The notes under the pieces: generated by a model
Told to the model about the DNA's origin: nothing
Databases searched by the model: none
Seen by the model: the letters and a program-made list of their open reading frames with translations, nothing else
Position numbers and translations under genes: made by a program
Source: Rhodopila sp.
GTDB taxonomy: Bacteria > Pseudomonadota > Alphaproteobacteria > Acetobacterales > Acetobacteraceae
Direction: 5' to 3'
Length of the DNA: 40,412 nucleotides
Assembly: GCA_025355085.1 (NCBI GenBank)
Contig: JANXLQ010000217.1
Coordinates: 1-40,412, forward strand
Shown here: one piece after another, positions 25,001-31,753 of the stretch
How positions within the stretch are numbered: position 1 is the stretch's first letter
Layout of the letters: each line of letters opens with the position of its first letter

Positions 25001-26392
25001 TCAGATATGCAGCGCCCGGCCCTCAACCGCCAGTGCCGCTTCCTTCACCGCCTCGCTCAACGTCGGGTGCGCGTGGCAAATCCGGGCCACGTCCTCAGCC
25101 GAGGCACCAAACTCGATTGCCGTGGTCAGTTCCGCGATCAGGGTGCCAGCATCCGGGCCAAGAATGTGGGCACCCAGCAAACGGTCGGTGGCCTTATCCG
25201 CCAGGATCTTCACAAACCCATCCACGTCGCCCATAGCCCGCGCCCGGCCGTTCGCGGTGAACGGAAATTTGCCGACGGAGTAGGCGATGCCACCGGCCTT
25301 CAATTCTTCCTCGGTCTGACCGACAGAGGCGACTTCCGGCCATGTGTAAACCACGCCGGGGATCGCGCCATAATTCACATGCCCTGCCTGGCCGGCGAGG
25401 GTTTCCGCCAGGGCAACGCCCTCGTCCTCGGCCTTGTGAGCCAACATTGGACCAGCGATCACGTCGCCGATCGCGTAGATCCCGGGGATGTTGGTCGCCC
25501 AATGAGCATCGACCTTCACCCGCTTACGGTCGTCCAACGCGACGCCTACCGCTTCCAGCCCGAGACCCTCGGTGTAGGGACGCCTGCCGATGGCAACCAG
25601 CACGATGTCGGCGTTCAGCGTCTCGGGCGGCCCGCCCTTGATGGGTTCCACAGTCAGGTTGACGCCGTCCGCCCCGGCCGTCGCGCCGGTCACCTTGGTG
25701 GCCAGCCGGAACTTAATGCCCTGCTTCTGTAGGACACGCTGGAACGCCGTGGCGATTTCGGTGTCCATCCCCGGTACGATCCGGTCCAGGAATTCAACGA
25801 CAGTTACGTCGGCACCCAGCCGCTTCCAGACGCTGCCGAGTTCGAGGCCGATGACGCCACCCCCGACGACGACCAGATGGCCAGGGACTGTCTCCAATTC
25901 CAACGCGCCGGTCGAAGTGACGATCTGCTTTTCATCCACCGTCACGCCGGGCAGCGGAACGCTGTCGCTGCCAGTGGCGATGACGATGGCCTTGGCGGCG
26001 TAAACCGTGCCATCGACATCGACCGAACCCGGCGCGGTAATGCGGCCGGTGCCCTTCAGCCAGGTGATCTTATTCTTGCGGAACAGGAACTCGACGCCCT
26101 TGGTGTTGGCGCCGACGACTTCGCCCTTACGGGCCTGCATGCGTACCAGATCCAGCTTTACGTCGCCGACCAGCACGCCGTGGTCCTTCAGGGCGTGAAC
26201 CGCCTTGTGAAATTCCTCCGACGATTGCAGCAGGGCCTTCGATGGGATGCAGCCCACGTTCAGGCATGTGCCGCCCAGGGTTGCGCGTTTCTCGACGCAG
26301 GCGACCTTCAGGCCGAGTTGCGCGGCGCGGATGGCGCACACATAGCCGCCGGGGCCGGAGCCGATGACAATGACGTCGAAGGAATTACTCAT
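25001..26392 (-). CDS. lpdA: Dihydrolipoyl dehydrogenase (E3)
   Basis: 463 residues. E3 reoxidises the dihydrolipoamide of 2-oxo acid dehydrogenase complexes and passes electrons to NAD+. It shows FAD site GSGPGG (11-16), the redox disulfide in [13 protein letters not shown] (C43, C48), a second dinucleotide fold [11 protein letters not shown] for NAD, the FAD-contacting [17 protein letters not shown], and the active-site HAHPTLSE His-Glu pair near the C-terminus. ATG 26392 overlaps the end of the upstream gene by 8 bp (ATGAGTAA), so translation is probably coupled to it. It is the last gene of the odh operon; two unrelated genes separate it from odhB. Confidence 0.97.
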
Positions 26393-27041
26393 TCAGTCCT
26401 CGGTGGGGTTGCGACTGCACGTGTAGGTCACGGCAAAGTTTTGTTAGCTGTAAAGCCTGTTGCGCGGGTAACCGCGATTGTGGTGCCAGGCGCATCAGTT
26501 GCTCTTGCCAATCCAGTGCGTCTTCGACCCGATCGAGAAGATCCTGATCGAGGTGGCCTGCGTAAACGAGCTCGCGTGCCAGATGCAGGGTCGTCTTGTC
26601 GCGGACACGAATATGGCTGGCCGATGCAAATCCGCGGACTATATATCCTAAAACCTCGCCAAGGTAGATGCATTCGCGGGCCATATCGGTGCCGGCCGCG
26701 GGCGGTTGCAGCATACGCTCAAGCCAATCCAGAGCGAGAAAAGCCTCGTAATCCGGTTCGGACCGTACGGTCACCAGTTCCAGACGCCATCCTGGTTCCG
26801 CGGCAACGCGGTCGGCCAGTTCCACCAGATCGTTGGCTCCCTTTAGTCCCCGGGAGGGCTTCACCTCGACGATGACGCGATCGCCTTCTTTTTCCGCGAT
26901 AAGGTCGGGTCGGCAGTCGCCAAGAAAGGGTGGCAACACGTCCTTTCCCGACGGGAAAAGGACCCGATATCCCTGCTTCTTGTAAGAGGAGGCGATCTGC
27001 CGGCGGCGACGATCGACCTTAATCTCGATTTGTGTGGTCAT
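26385..27041 (-). CDS. PD-(D/E)XK nuclease-like protein
   Basis: 218 residues. The N-terminal half contains the nuclease core pattern: [11 protein letters not shown] (P45-D46), then strand [10 protein letters not shown] with E59 and K61, the metal-binding Asp-Glu-x-Lys arrangement used by many restriction and repair nucleases. The remainder is helical ([29 protein letters not shown]) with no transmembrane segment. The start ATG shares its A with the stop of the RusA-like gene (TGATG), and the end overlaps lpdA's ATG, so it is coupled on both sides. The substrate is unknown. It could be DNA repair, or a defence effector; only the fold is supported. Confidence 0.65.
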
Positions 27042-27484
27042 CAGCCGATATCCTCCTGATCGGGACTACGCCAAACCTCGATATGCACAAATTGCCGTCC
27101 ATCGCTGAACGCCATGGCAAGGGCCGGCGACATATAACGGACCTTAAAAGAACTATCGATATCCCGCCGCCTGGCGGTCACGTCGGTGATTTGCCGATCA
27201 TCGTTGTAGGCAACGCCCTGAAGCGCATCCTGGATGGGCTTCAAGAGGTTATCCACATCGCCAAGTTCCGACTCCCGATAAAAGGTCACCTGAAGTCTAA
27301 CGGAGCCATCGATGGGTGGCTCGTTCGGCTTCCAGGCCGCGATACTGGCTGACCGAACGCGTTTTTGCCACGCTTGCAATCCGGTGCGGCCCGAACTTTG
27401 CGCGGAAACCGCCTGACCATGAACACATACGTCAAGAACGCGAGGTGCGGGTGGTTCGTCCTTTACCAGCCGCCGCCGCGCCAT
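27041..27484 (-). CDS. RusA-family Holliday junction resolvase-like protein
   Basis: 147 residues. The RusA signature is clear: GDVDNLLKPIQDALQG followed by YNDDRQI. D76, D78, K82 and D95/D96 match the catalytic D-D-K-D set of E. coli RusA, which cuts four-way DNA junctions. The N-terminus (VCVHGQAVSAQS) and middle (WQKRVRSASIAAW, LQVTFYRESELG) fit the usual beta-alpha fold. ATG 27484 is 15 bp after odhB's stop, and the gene overlaps the next by one base. RusA genes are typically in phages or prophages; here the gene is embedded in a TCA-cycle operon. No other phage gene is visible. Confidence 0.85.
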   Translation of the reverse strand: MARRRLVKDEPPAPRVLDVCVHGQAVSAQSSGRTGLQAWQKRVRSASIAAWKPNEPPIDGSVRLQVTFYRESELGDVDNLLKPIQDALQGVAYNDDRQITDVTARRRDIDSSFKVRYMSPALAMAFSDGRQFVHIEVWRSPDQEDIG

Positions 27485-27499
27485 TGCGATGCGTCGCTA

Positions 27500-28753
27500 T
27501 CAAAGATCCAGCAGCAGACGGCGGGGGTCCTCGACGCCTTCCTTGACGCGAACCAGGAACGACACAGCCTCTTTGCCATCGACGATCCGGTGATCGTAGG
27601 ACAGCGCGAGGTACATCATCGGCCGAATCTCAACCTTGCCGGCGATCGCCATCGGGCGGTCCTGAATCTTGTGCATCCCCAGGATCGCCGATTGCGGCGG
27701 GTTCAGGATCGGGGTGGACATCAACGACCCGTAGATGCCGCCGTTGGTGATGCTGAACGTGCCACCCGTCAGATCGTCCAGCTTCATCCCACCGTCACGG
27801 GCGCGTTTACCGTAGTTGGAAATGGCGCTCTCGATCCCGGCGAAACCCAGTTGGTCGCAATCGCGGATAACCGGCACGACCAGGCCAGACGGGCCGCCCA
27901 CCGCGATGCCCATATTCACAAAGTTCTTGTACACGACATCGTCGCCGTCGATCTCGGCATTAACCGCCGGGAACTCTTTCAGCGCCACGCAGCAGGCGCG
28001 GACGAAGACGCTCATGAAGCCGAGCCGCACGCCCTTGTGCTTCTTCTCGAACGCATCGCGGTATTCGGTCCGCAGCGCCATGATCGCCGTCATATCCACC
28101 TCGTTAAAGGTGGTCAGCATGGCAGCGTTGTTCTGCGCTTCCTTCAACCGCATCGCGATAGTGCGGCGCAGGCGGGTCATCTTCACACGTTCTTCGCGCG
28201 GCTGATCCTGGCGCGGAGCCTTCGCGGCGGGCGCCGGGGCAGCGGCGGGCGCGGGACGGTTCAGGAAATCGATCACATCGCCCTTGGTGATGCGGCCGTC
28301 CTTGCCGGTCCCGGTGCCAATGTCAGCAGCGGAAACCGGGCTTTCGGCGATCATCTTGGCGGCGGCGGGCAGCGGTGCGTGGACAGCGGCGGCAGCAGGG
28401 CGAGACACCGGACCCAGCGGGCGCGGCGGCGGATTGACCCCGGCCGGCGGGTTCGCGGCGGGTCGCGCTTCCGGTGCGGCGGGATTCAGGGCAGCAGGTG
28501 CCGGGGCGGCGGCTCCGGCAACATCGATCAGGCACAGTACGGCGCCGACATCGACCTCGGTGCCTTCCGGGACGACGATCGAGGACAGGACACCGGCGGC
28601 AGTCGCATTGACCTCCACCGTGACCTTATCGGTTTCCAGCTCGACCAGCGGCTCGTCAGCCGCCACGGTGTCACCGAGTTGCTTGATCCAGCGGGCAACC
28701 GTGGCGGTTGTGACGCTCTCGCCCAAGGTGGGCACTACGATTTCAGTCGCCAC
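27500..28753 (-). CDS. odhB: 2-oxoglutarate dehydrogenase E2 (dihydrolipoyl succinyltransferase)
   Basis: 417 residues. The enzyme moves the succinyl group from E1 to CoA via a swinging lipoyl arm. The lipoyl domain (1-~76) has K43 in [11 protein letters not shown] as the lipoylation site. A Pro/Ala-rich flexible linker follows, then a peripheral-subunit binding domain ([32 protein letters not shown]), another linker, and the catalytic domain from ~190 ending in [19 protein letters not shown], with the His-Asp pair of the active site. It starts at ATG 28753, 60 bp after odhA. Two genes unrelated to the TCA cycle follow before lpdA. Confidence 0.97.
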
Positions 28754-28813: not shown

Positions 28814-31753
28814 CTAGCCGATACCGAGGACGGTGGAAACCAGCCGCGACTGTTGCGCCATGTGGGTCTTGGCCAAACCGGTCGCCGGGCTGGCGGCGGA
28901 TTCACGCCCTACATAGACCGGGCGGCGGACTTTTATGTCCAAACGGCCGAGCACCTTCTCAATCTGGCGATCGACGAAGGTCCAGGCGCCCATGTTCTCG
29001 GGCTCCTCCTGACACCATACCACGTCGGCGTTGCTATAGGGCGCCAGCAGGCGGCCCAGCGTGTTTTCCGGGAACGGATACATCTGCTCCAGCCGGAGGA
29101 TCACGATGTCCTTGATATCCTTGGACCGGCGCTCCTGCAGCAGATCGTAATAGACCTTGCCGGAGCAGATCACGACGCGGCGAATCTTTTCCGGTGGGTC
29201 GATGGCGTCGATTTCCGGGATCACATACTGGAACCGCGTGCCCTCGGCGAAATCGGCCAGCGGCGACACCGCCAGTTTGTGGCGCAGCAGCGACTTCGGC
29301 TCAAACACGATCAGCGGCTTGCGGAAATTGCGATGCAACTGGCGGCGCAGCGCATGGAAATAATTCGCCGGGGTCGTCAGGTTGCAGACCCACATGTTGC
29401 GCTCGGCACAGAGCTGCAAATACCGCTCGATACGGGCCGAGGAATGCTCCGGCCCCTGACCTTCGTAGCCATGCGGTAACAGCATCACCAGGCCGGACAT
29501 GCGCAGCCACTTGGTTTCGCCGCTGGCGATGAACTGGTCGATAATCACCTGGGCGCCATTCGCAAAATCGCCGAACTGCGCCTCCCACAACACCAGCGTG
29601 CGCGGATCGGCCAGCGAGTAGCCGTAGTCGAAGCCCAGCACGCCAGCCTCGGACAGCAGCGAGTTGTAGATCTCGATCTTCGCCTGATCGGGGGTGATGT
29701 TGTTAACCGGCGTATATTCGTTCTGGTTCACCTGATCGATCAACACCGCATGCCGCTGGCTGAACGTGCCGCGCTGGGTGTCTTCGCCGGACAGGCGAAT
29801 GCGGCTGCCTTCAATCAACAGGCTGCCGAACGCAAGGGCCTCACCGGTCGCCCAGTCAATGCCTGTGCCGGAGTCGATCGCCGTCTTCTTGGCTTCCAAC
29901 TGGCGGACGATCTTGGAGTTGACGTTGAACCCTTCGGGTATGCGTGACAGCGCTGCGCCGACCAGTTTCAGGTTTGCCAGGGGGACGGCGGTGTCTTCCT
30001 CCACATGCGGCATTTCCTCCCGCTCGGGCGGATGGAAGCCGGACCAGTGGCCTTCCAGCCAGTCGGCCTTGTTCGGCTTATAGGATTTTGCCGCCGAGTT
30101 GGCGTCTTCCAGCGTCTTGGTGAAGTCGTCCAGCATGGCTTTGGAGTCAGCCGCCGGCACAGTACCGTCGGCTGCCAGTTTTTCGGCATACAGCGTGCGG
30201 GTGGTCTTCAAACCGCCGATCGCCTTATACATCAGCGGCTGAGTGAATGCCGGCTCATCGGTCTCATTATGGCCGTGGCGGCGATAGCAGACGATGTCCA
30301 GGATGACGTCGGCGGCGAATTTCATGCGGTATTCGGCGGCCATGCGGGCACAGAAAATCACCGCTTCCGGGTCGTCGCCGTTAACGTGCAGGATCGGTGC
30401 CTGGATCGATTTCGCCACATCGGTGCAATACAGACCGGAGTAGGCGTGCGCCGGAACGGTGGTGAAGCCGATTTGGTTGTTGACGATCAGGTGGATCGTG
30501 CCACCGGTGCGGTAGCCGATCAACTGGCTCATCGCCAGCGTCTCATAAACCAGACCCTGGCCGGCAAATGCCGCATCGCCATGCATCAGGATGGCCATAA
30601 CCGAGCCGCGCTTTTTCGTATCGCCCGCTCGGTCCTGACGCGCGCGGACTTTGCCGATGACGACCGGATCGACCGCCTCCAGGTGCGAGGGGTTCGGTTG
30701 TAGCGACAGATGGACGTTATGCCCGGCGATCTCCACGTCCGTGGACGTGCCGAGGTGATACTTCACATCGCCGGAACCCTGCACGTCGTCCGGCTTGAAG
30801 CTTTCGCCGCCGAATTCGCTGAACAGCGCGGTCAATGGCTTTTTGACGATATTCACAAGAGTGTTCAGGCGTCCGCGATGCGGCATGCCGATGGCGACTT
30901 CCACCACGCCGTCCGCCGCAACGGTTTCGATGATCGCATGCAACGCCGGGATGGTGATTTCCCCACCTTCAAGGCCGAAGCGCTTGGTGGTGACGTAACG
31001 CTTCTGGCAAAACGCCTCGAACCCCTCGGCTTCGGTCAGGCGGTGCAGCACGGTGCGCTTTTCGTCCGCGGTCAGTAAGGTTAGCCACGGCGCACCCTCA
31101 ACCCGGCGCTGGAGCCAGGATTTCTGGTCGGGGTCCTGGATATGCATGAACTCGATGCCGATCGGGCCGCAGTAGGTTTGCCGCAGGATGTGCATGATTT
31201 CGCGCAAGGTGGCGGTTTCCCGCCCGAGGACGTAATCGATAAAAATCGGCTTATCGAGGTCGGCATCCGAGAACCCGTACGACTTCGGGTCAAGTTCCGG
31301 GTGCGGCGCGGGGATTTGCAAACCGAGCGGATCGAGGCGAGCCTCCAGATGTCCGCGCACGCGGTAGGACCGGATCAGCATTAGCGCCCGAAGCGACGCG
31401 ATCGTAGCGGCGCGCACCTGATCCGGCGCGAGTCCATTTTGTGGCGCTTCCGCGACGAGTGCGCTTGATGTCGCATCCGCGGCGGGTCCGCCTGGTGCCG
31501 CTTTCGCGACGGGTCCACCTGATCTCGCATCCGCGACGGGGCTTTCATCATCGTTAAACCCGCGACGAGGCGCCCATGACGCTCCACTCGCGTCTTCAAG
31601 CACCGCTCGGGCTTCGTCGTTCATCGCGGCGAACAGGTCGGCAAAACTGGCATCGACGGAGGAGGGATTACCAACCCATCGTGCATAAAGATCGGCCAAA
31701 AATGCCGCATTGGCGCCACTGAAGGCCGACGCCAGAATATCCATACCCGCCAT
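28814..31753 (-). CDS. odhA: 2-oxoglutarate dehydrogenase E1
   Basis: 979 residues. This thiamine diphosphate enzyme decarboxylates 2-oxoglutarate and hands succinyl to E2. Features: N-terminal NAAFLADLYARWVGNPSSVD (the E2-binding head), a low-complexity linker with four 9-residue repeats (73-108), RSYRVRGHLEARLDPLG, EFMHIQDPDQKSWLQ, GMPHRGRLNTLVNI, GDAAFAGQGLVYETL with the conserved Asp of the ThDP/metal site, and INNQIGFTT-like VNNQIGFTT. The C-terminal part includes CQEEPENMGAW. ATG 31753 is the start of the conserved head. It is the first gene of the minus-strand odh operon. Confidence 0.97.
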   Translation of the reverse strand: MAGMDILASAFSGANAAFLADLYARWVGNPSSVDASFADLFAAMNDEARAVLEDASGASWAPRRGFNDDESPVADARSGGPVAKAAPGGPAADATSSALVAEAPQNGLAPDQVRAATIASLRALMLIRSYRVRGHLEARLDPLGLQIPAPHPELDPKSYGFSDADLDKPIFIDYVLGRETATLREIMHILRQTYCGPIGIEFMHIQDPDQKSWLQRRVEGAPWLTLLTADEKRTVLHRLTEAEGFEAFCQKRYVTTKRFGLEGGEITIPALHAIIETVAADGVVEVAIGMPHRGRLNTLVNIVKKPLTALFSEFGGESFKPDDVQGSGDVKYHLGTSTDVEIAGHNVHLSLQPNPSHLEAVDPVVIGKVRARQDRAGDTKKRGSVMAILMHGDAAFAGQGLVYETLAMSQLIGYRTGGTIHLIVNNQIGFTTVPAHAYSGLYCTDVAKSIQAPILHVNGDDPEAVIFCARMAAEYRMKFAADVILDIVCYRRHGHNETDEPAFTQPLMYKAIGGLKTTRTLYAEKLAADGTVPAADSKAMLDDFTKTLEDANSAAKSYKPNKADWLEGHWSGFHPPEREEMPHVEEDTAVPLANLKLVGAALSRIPEGFNVNSKIVRQLEAKKTAIDSGTGIDWATGEALAFGSLLIEGSRIRLSGEDTQRGTFSQRHAVLIDQVNQNEYTPVNNITPDQAKIEIYNSLLSEAGVLGFDYGYSLADPRTLVLWEAQFGDFANGAQVIIDQFIASGETKWLRMSGLVMLLPHGYEGQGPEHSSARIERYLQLCAERNMWVCNLTTPANYFHALRRQLHRNFRKPLIVFEPKSLLRHKLAVSPLADFAEGTRFQYVIPEIDAIDPPEKIRRVVICSGKVYYDLLQERRSKDIKDIVILRLEQMYPFPENTLGRLLAPYSNADVVWCQEEPENMGAWTFVDRQIEKVLGRLDIKVRRPVYVGRESAASPATGLAKTHMAQQSRLVSTVLGIG
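31430..31537 (-). repeat. Four tandem 27-bp repeats in the odhA linker
   Basis: The 27-bp unit (gtcgcggatgcgagatcagg...) occurs four times without gap and encodes VADARSGGP, VAKAAPGGP, AADATSSAL and VAEAPQNGL (residues 73-108 of odhA). The copies differ in up to about half the residues, so expansion is old. It lies in the flexible region between the E2-binding head and the catalytic body. Confidence 0.85.

Follow-up and report, generated by a model that had tools for sequence, protein, structure and literature searches.

Two nuclease genes between odhB and lpdA in Rhodopila sp.: one copy of a recurrent RusA and Hjc-type PD-(D/E)XK-HEPN module of putative defence-type origin

Why should genes for DNA-junction and nuclease enzymes lie inside an operon of the tricarboxylic acid (TCA) cycle? 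The question is raised by a 40,412-nucleotide contig of a Rhodopila sp. genome (JANXLQ010000217.1 of assembly GCA_025355085.1; genome G000, completeness 100, contamination 2.9), the whole of which is referred to here as the window, where a RusA-like gene and a gene of the PD-(D/E)XK type stand between odhB and lpdA. An earlier note, made from the letters of this DNA, described the pair and offered as explanations a repair, defence or phage-derived function whose supply is tied to central metabolism, or else a neutral insertion. The explanation favoured here, with somewhat more confidence than doubt, is that the two genes are a single instance of a recurrent, translationally coupled module consisting of RusA and an Hjc-type PD-(D/E)XK-HEPN protein, that the module has a defence-type origin, defence being a role that we infer, and that the lineage occupying the odhB-lpdA interval (the odh slot) is now centred on RusA. 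The domains, their order, the overlapping codons, the recurrence at many loci and the states of the active sites, on which this explanation is built, were established from profile matches, alignments and predicted structures.

The first protein of the pair matches the RusA family PF05866 well above the curated cut-off (E 1.3e-11, 45.6 bits against 22.8) and the RusA-like profile of PHROG (E 9e-16); a profile match to the PDB entry 1q8r is weak (E 0.062) and ranks below an unrelated protein. It has a complete Asp/Asp/Lys/Asp set at D76, D78, K82 and D95/D96, the positions that are catalytic in Escherichia coli RusA, and the RusA assignment with its D-D-K-D pattern in the earlier note is borne out. 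A substitution of RuvC by this RusA was considered and ruled out, as RuvC is encoded in the same genome.

The second protein had been called PD-(D/E)XK-like and this holds, since it matches the AHJR-like family PF18743 (E 1.4e-19, with a score of 70.3 bits where 26.1 is required) and residues P45-D46, E59 and K61 of the PD-(D/E)XK site are all intact. Structure prediction, suggested in the earlier note as a check, gave a nuclease fold: with an AlphaFold2 model (mean predicted local distance difference test score (pLDDT) 86.5, predicted template-modelling score (pTM) 0.58) the top PDB matches in Foldseek are archaeal Hjc resolvases, the template-modelling (TM) score being about 0.4 by target, with weak E-values (none below 0.001, the best 0.013) and top-row probabilities of 0.99-1.00 (1.00 for Hjc). 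What the earlier description overlooked is an additional, HEPN-like half. The same model aligns to the HEPN protein 2hsb with a TM score of 0.71 by target length and 0.44 by query (E 0.058), no Pfam HEPN family is matched by the window's protein in sequence, and the catalytic Rx4H is replaced by a Q at position 179 and an R at position 184; the C-terminal half is thus predicted to be a pseudo-HEPN and is not classed as a ribonuclease (RNase). Homologs bear a helical C-terminal half with an RNxxxHG motif. A paralog in the same genome (L017) matches the HepT-like family PF01934 above the cut-off (6.1e-6), and in the HEPN Pfam scan of ten homologs to which this result belongs five others matched below the cut-off and four not at all (L089, L090, L037 and L111). 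A model of a canonical member from Rhizobium (L130; pLDDT 90.8) gave the same Hjc and HEPN matches with HEPN ranked first, a profile of 28 members compared with the PDB found Hjc 2eo0 at E 7.9e-4 and other Hjc proteins and HepN toxins at 0.13-0.18, and one homolog is titled a HepT-like ribonuclease domain protein in an NCBI record. NCBIfam gave no match for either of the window's proteins.

The arrangement is not peculiar to the window. A set of 50 AHJR loci was assembled from the window, 19 loci found by genome search and 30 of the 32 found by peptide pattern (the other two, L137 and L138, duplicate L019 and L020), leaving out five weak matches of a scan of the class (L113-L117) that were HEPN-only or unconvincing. 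RusA lies directly upstream on the same strand in 45 of the 50 (42 beyond the three copies in the odh slot, some of them damaged), and in these the stop codon of RusA and the start codon of the AHJR gene overlap by 1 bp in 25 and by 4 bp in 12, the junction being 0 or +2 in six and wider in two damaged copies. The loci with no RusA upstream are L101, L021, L111, L144 (a contig edge with a RusA fragment) and L149 (degraded). Among the 30 loci found by a profile or protein search, as opposed to a peptide pattern alone, RusA is present in 27. A scan of 398 Pseudomonadota genomes with PF18743 produced matches in six, five of them over the cut-off, namely the window's genome, G460 (already in the set), G904, G852, G704 and G607; in all four genomes new to the set RusA is directly upstream, with the caveats that the RusA of G704 is a shortened frame, that the slot in G904 is that of L132, and that G607 is below the cut-off and outside the class. 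Presence of the module is sporadic: an AHJR match was obtained in 15 of the genus's 33 genomes, in 7 of 150 genomes of the family when the window's protein was the query, and in 13 of 385 genomes of the class when a profile was used, five of the last being weak and not counted as members. When one canonical AHJR-HEPN protein was used as a query, 6 of 72,556 plasmid records matched and none of 50,697 phage records did (tblastn); two scans of viral contigs with short peptide patterns also found no relative of the module, distant relatives being able to escape both kinds of search. The proposal that the pair is phage-derived is therefore not supported. A scan of genome contigs with a peptide pattern taken from the window's protein alone found none. 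Broken copies occur at L018, L112, L119 and L149. The first of these (L018:7676-8745) belongs to G099, to which the window's genome is most closely related, and its AHJR frame has two stops and RusA is without the first catalytic Asp.

The pattern of active-site conservation is informative in itself, with RusA fixed, HEPN mostly retained and the PD-(D/E)XK lysine often lost. In an alignment of the 41 RusA proteins, out of 45, that exceed 120 residues, D78, K82 and D96 are found in all and D76 in 40, the exception being the broken L018. For the AHJR proteins, 47 of the 50 exceed 180 residues and could be aligned, and here the D of the PD-(D/E)XK site is present in 45, the E in 41, the K in 28 and all three in 26, which leaves 19 members with no catalytic lysine. 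Both R and H of the HEPN motif are kept in 42 of the 47 and are missing in the window, L102, L103, L089 and L090; as the peptide-pattern loci were found through PDAIA-type and HEPN-motif peptides, the counts for D and for HEPN are biased upward and that for K is not, and of the 28 aligned loci found by other means 23 have the HEPN motif and 18 the K. In the odh slot the RusA site is intact in three of three copies and the HEPN site lost in three of three, and the PD-(D/E)XK site, intact in the window, is altered in the other two (D to G and K to R).

Those three copies came from a reading of the interval in related genomes, which the earlier note had suggested. A search for lpdA in 98 genomes gave matches in all 98, paralogs included, and 30 lpdA loci were read with the window among them, 23 coming from the 33 genomes of the genus (the slot is unread in the other 10). 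An odhB match lies upstream of lpdA in all 29 loci other than the window, and the pair stands between the two genes in three of the 30: the window, L037 (genome G163; the same locus as L102) and L044 (G150; the same as L103). The position and the overlapping codons are thus kept in two further genomes of the genus, where identity to the window is 48-50% for RusA, 33% for the second protein and 80-81% for lpdA. In G099, where lpdA is 95% identical, a 380-bp gap separates odhB from lpdA and no pair is found there; the next nearest copies in genus-wide scans, G166:C60 and G157:C68, lie outside the odh slot. When L037 is compared with L044, RusA has a ratio of non-synonymous to synonymous substitution (dN/dS) of 0.105, the second gene one of 0.24 and lpdA one of 0.064; within the second gene the ratio is 0.083 for the Hjc-like N-terminal part and 0.49 for the C-terminal part. 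These values indicate that both genes of the pair are under purifying selection between the two genomes, the weaker constraint on the C-terminal part fitting a partial relaxation. Since selection is seen despite an altered PD-(D/E)XK site, the second protein seems to be retained for a function other than that active site.

In a quick tree of AHJR proteins the odh-slot trio forms one clade (Shimodaira-Hasegawa-like approximate likelihood ratio test (SH-aLRT) 97). The RusA tree groups the trio with L089 and L090 (100) and does not resolve the trio itself, and it was dropped as support for its monophyly. The hosts of the trio fall into two separate clades in the lpdA tree, requiring at least two changes, and this distribution could reflect either ancestral presence with losses or interspecies transfer. 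A very long branch, of 2.9 changes per column, lies between the RusA proteins of the trio and its sister copies and all the others. The sister copies (L089:5729-6715 and L090:5672-6667) carry some 110 residues C-terminal to the HEPN half; a GIY-YIG domain was suspected there by eye, no Pfam match was obtained for it, and it is not claimed.

Where else does the module sit? Gene calls in these high-GC loci are heuristic (in L102 and L103, for instance, an antisense open reading frame (ORF) was reported in place of lpdA), and the counts that follow were read by hand with no random-gene control. At least 19 of the 45 pairs begin no more than 130 bp from a same-strand upstream gene of at least 150 codons, about ten have a same-strand gene on either side at no more than 150 bp, and the upstream call is on the opposite strand in 14, so that promoters of their own must exist in some copies. 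The neighbours, named by eye, are presumably cobS/cobT (L123), rplU-rpmA-obg (L129), yebC (L136), prfA on the downstream side (L139, L144 and L150) and infB-rbfA beside the degraded copy L149, and what we take to be a gene for a CaiB-type CoA-transferase lies upstream at L091, L127 and L128 and also at L133 and L140 (Acidisoma). With other copies in other operons the association with the TCA cycle appears incidental, and the special metabolic tie of the earlier note is not supported, both because the module occupies many unrelated operons and because G099 carries no pair at the slot. Two subfamilies of the module, in different genera, both lie just 3' of CaiB-type CoA-transferase genes, a similar slot being used repeatedly. 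The paralog pair of the window's own genome (L017:807-3160) is flanked by two frames that we recognise as ccdA-like and one as ccdB-like, as if it had been inserted in or beside a toxin-antitoxin locus.

Some copies have neighbours associated with defence. Seven proteins at three loci, picked for their defence-like look, were scanned with PADLOC. At the Rhizobium locus L130 the next gene upstream is PD-T7-1 (E 2.5e-59), and also near are a 2TM CBASS effector (3.3e-78) and a protein matching REase_II in part (1.3e-9); at the rhizobial L146 a dCTPase was found (4e-157) and two further proteins had no match; and at L134 in Sphingopyxis a type II methyltransferase (MTase_II, 6.4e-96) was found. 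Annotation places an AbiEii/AbiGii toxin-family gene directly upstream of the copy on the Rhizobium plasmid pT136b (L152), preceded by a DUF6088 gene, and LigD, ImuA and an ATP-binding protein next to the copy on a Ti plasmid; a fourth region examined for annotated neighbours carried no annotation.

It may well be the case, then, that the canonical form of the module acts against phages or plasmids. RusA and the Hjc-like domain would recognise, and perhaps cut, the branched structures that arise when foreign DNA replicates or recombines; the role of the HEPN RNase would be to halt the cell or degrade RNA. In the odh-slot lineage, as RusA is intact in all three copies, the likeliest present activity would be the cutting or binding of junctions by RusA, with help from the second protein as a partner that binds (or cuts) DNA. 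As the intergenic space is too short for a promoter, the pair would depend on the odh operon for its expression, although a promoter within odhB is conceivable. Of the options raised in the earlier note, defence is the one that the evidence appears to favour. A more ambitious proposal, which is offered tentatively and in which we have more doubt than belief, is that the module represents an anti-phage system not described so far. Two Holliday-junction-resolvase folds with no relation to each other, RusA and the Hjc-like domain, would detect or cleave branched DNA of foreign origin and thereby activate the fused HEPN RNase. The system would be carried as a compact cassette in housekeeping operons, often with no room for a promoter of its own; the odh-slot lineage would have shed the RNase step and persist as a pair of DNA-junction nucleases.

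A number of observations weigh against a defensive reading. The HEPN site is lost in the odh-slot copies, so an RNase output cannot apply to the window's pair, and by sequence HEPN exceeds the Pfam cut-off in just one of the ten homologs scanned. The defence neighbours are an association and not an enrichment, the scanned proteins having been preselected and two having given nothing; no defence-like annotation was found near the copy on an Azospirillum plasmid; and many copies, that of the window included, lie among housekeeping genes and not in defence islands. PADLOC returned no family for the window's two proteins and nine relatives. Finally, the long branch leading to the RusA proteins of the trio and its sister copies may mean that they were combined with the AHJR protein in a separate event.

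Comparison with known systems places the components more precisely. The window's RusA resembles E. coli RusA (PF05866; PDB 1q8r, 2h8c and 2h8e) in its Pfam match and its D-D-K-D residues. RusA is usually known from prophages, whereas here it belongs to chromosomal and plasmid two-gene modules, and the AHJR-HEPN partner, searched with one canonical query, matched no phage record. The second protein shares its N-terminal fold and PD-(D/E)XK layout with archaeal Hjc (PDB 4tkd, 2wiz and 2eo0), and differs in the extra HEPN half and in the members that have no catalytic lysine. The HEPN half is of the toxin-domain type found in the HepT/MntA type VII toxin-antitoxin system (NCBIfam HepT against L130: E 3.1e-5, 23.8 bits, below the cut-off of 60), but in the module it is fused to a resolvase-type domain and RusA takes the place of the partner; an MNT antitoxin beside HEPN was not seen upstream, where the gene is RusA in 45 of 50 loci, the downstream genes not having been searched for MNT. 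A fusion of HEPN to an archaeal Holliday junction resolvase-like REase is listed in Table 1 of Anantharaman et al. 2013 (PMC3710099), and this is probably, to judge from the name, the source of PF18743 AHJR-like. The listed fusion resembles the module in the AHJR-like domain followed, in most homologs, by a HEPN-type half; it differs in that the main text of that paper does not contain the word RusA, and in that the HEPN site of the window is dead. The AHJR-HEPN fusion is already in print, then, but no publication coupling such a protein with RusA was found in a search outside which most subscription papers fell, and that pairing is apparently undescribed. AbiD1, an abortive-infection protein of the HEPN type that the same paper (PMC3710099) connects with a RuvC-like resolvase of a phage, provides a parallel in idea only: in both a HEPN effector would be functionally tied to a Holliday-junction resolvase, but that of AbiD1 is encoded by the phage and that of the module beside the HEPN gene.

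If the defence role is true, the module would be a compact two-gene system, unmatched in the 2023 PADLOC catalogue, that joins recognition of DNA junctions to an RNase effector, and with it one could ask directly if HEPN toxins respond to intermediates of recombination (compare AbiD1). The odh-slot lineage is a natural experiment, having lost the RNase site with the DNA part still under selection. There is also a warning here that defence-like genes can hide in central operons and be overlooked by surveys based on islands.

The same evidence has to be set against other explanations. The module could be a toxin-antitoxin or addiction unit, in which the HEPN protein is a toxin restrained by the coupled upstream RusA and the whole is a selfish passenger, the odh-slot remnant, after the death of its HEPN site, being kept for some other reason or vanishing. 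The gene order and overlap are like those of toxin-antitoxin operons, the toxin domain is HepT-like, copies are found broken, and the L017 paralog adjoins ccdA-like and ccdB-like frames. An antitoxin, however, would not need catalytic residues, and those of RusA are invariant or nearly so in 41 members; HEPN toxins are usually paired with an MNT antitoxin, whereas 45 of the 50 loci have RusA as the partner; and the dN/dS of RusA is low even where the HEPN site is dead. We consider this explanation unlikely. A similar verdict, given with slightly greater assurance, applies to a host pair for DNA repair or recombination that is co-expressed with central metabolism and has no part in conflict: RusA and Hjc are both known types of Holliday-junction resolvase and copies often lie in housekeeping operons (cobS-cobT, prfA, rplU-rpmA, yebC), but such a pair would hardly be as sporadic as this one is in the genus and the class (several of the class matches being weak), its host already has RuvC, the RNase-type HEPN motif is carried by 42 of 47 copies (partly a bias of how loci were found), and RusA has diverged fast in comparison with lpdA.

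Loss of the HEPN site in the trio and of PD-(D/E)XK residues in two of the three could instead mean that the pair is a neutral or decaying insertion, one among the passengers that the odhB-lpdA slot tolerates, and the content of the slot does vary between genomes. This we regard as improbable, since the frames are open, both overlaps kept and the RusA residues intact in three genomes, and it was on account of the dN/dS of the two genes between L037 and L044, indicative of purifying selection on both, that the neutral option of the earlier note was set aside. A selfish element of the homing type, which spreads into operons because its nucleases cleave sites that lack the cassette or assist gene conversion, would account for a compact, nuclease-only cassette found at many sites with no transposase gene inside, and for a trio that is one AHJR clade (SH-aLRT 97) in hosts of two lpdA clades. 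Neither component, however, is a known homing enzyme, the RusA tree fails to set the trio apart from L089 and L090, and ancestral presence with losses would yield an identical pattern, and homing is judged highly improbable. The features of the locus are collected in Table 1.

Table 1. Positions of the two-gene module and of the surrounding odh genes in the window.
Feature	Position	Strand	Basis or remark
odhA (2-oxoglutarate dehydrogenase E1)	28814..31753	minus	ORF list; operon context
odhB (E2)	27500..28753	minus	ORF; host gene directly upstream of pair
Spacer between odhB stop and RusA start, 15 bp	27485..27499	minus	read from sequence
RusA-like gene, 147 aa, first in module	27041..27484	minus	PF05866, PHROG
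RusA catalytic cluster codons D76, D78, K82	27239..27259	minus	family alignment
Stop/start overlap TGATG, 1 bp, RusA/AHJR	27041..27041	minus	identical overlap in L037 and L044
AHJR-like PD-(D/E)XK + predicted pseudo-HEPN half, 218 aa, second in module	26385..27041	minus	PF18743, AlphaFold2, Foldseek
PD-(D/E)XK site codons P45-D46, E59, K61	26859..26909	minus	alignments
HEPN Rx4H position, residues 179 (Q) and 184 (R), site lost	26490..26507	minus	alignments, family tally
Overlap of AHJR gene with lpdA start, 8 bp	26385..26392	minus	4 bp, ATGA, in L037 and L044
lpdA (E3)	25001..26392	minus	ORF; host gene directly downstream of pair

The coordinates, frames, order and spacings given in the earlier note (15 bp, then overlaps of 1 and 8 bp) all hold on re-reading. 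The names odhA, odhB and lpdA are those that we recognise from the sequence, odhA with no family search. With a spacer of 15 bp there is no intergenic space for a promoter or a terminator before RusA. The third-position GC of the pair is 0.61, against 0.79-0.81 for lpdA and the end of odhB, which is consistent with a foreign origin.

The slot itself is variable across the family. In eight genomes odhB and lpdA are 1-13 bp apart. Elsewhere the slot is occupied by glyoxalase-like (VOC) genes at L030, L035, L042, L051 and L055 (that of L030 confirmed by Pfam), and it hosts a GFA gene at L047 and an opposite-strand gene at L056. At L041 and L051 a different small two-gene unit is present, a remnant of which is seen at L043; at L041 it encodes proteins of 118 and 92 residues, neither with a Pfam match, from genes overlapping by 4 bp, and it resembles another coupled two-gene passenger.

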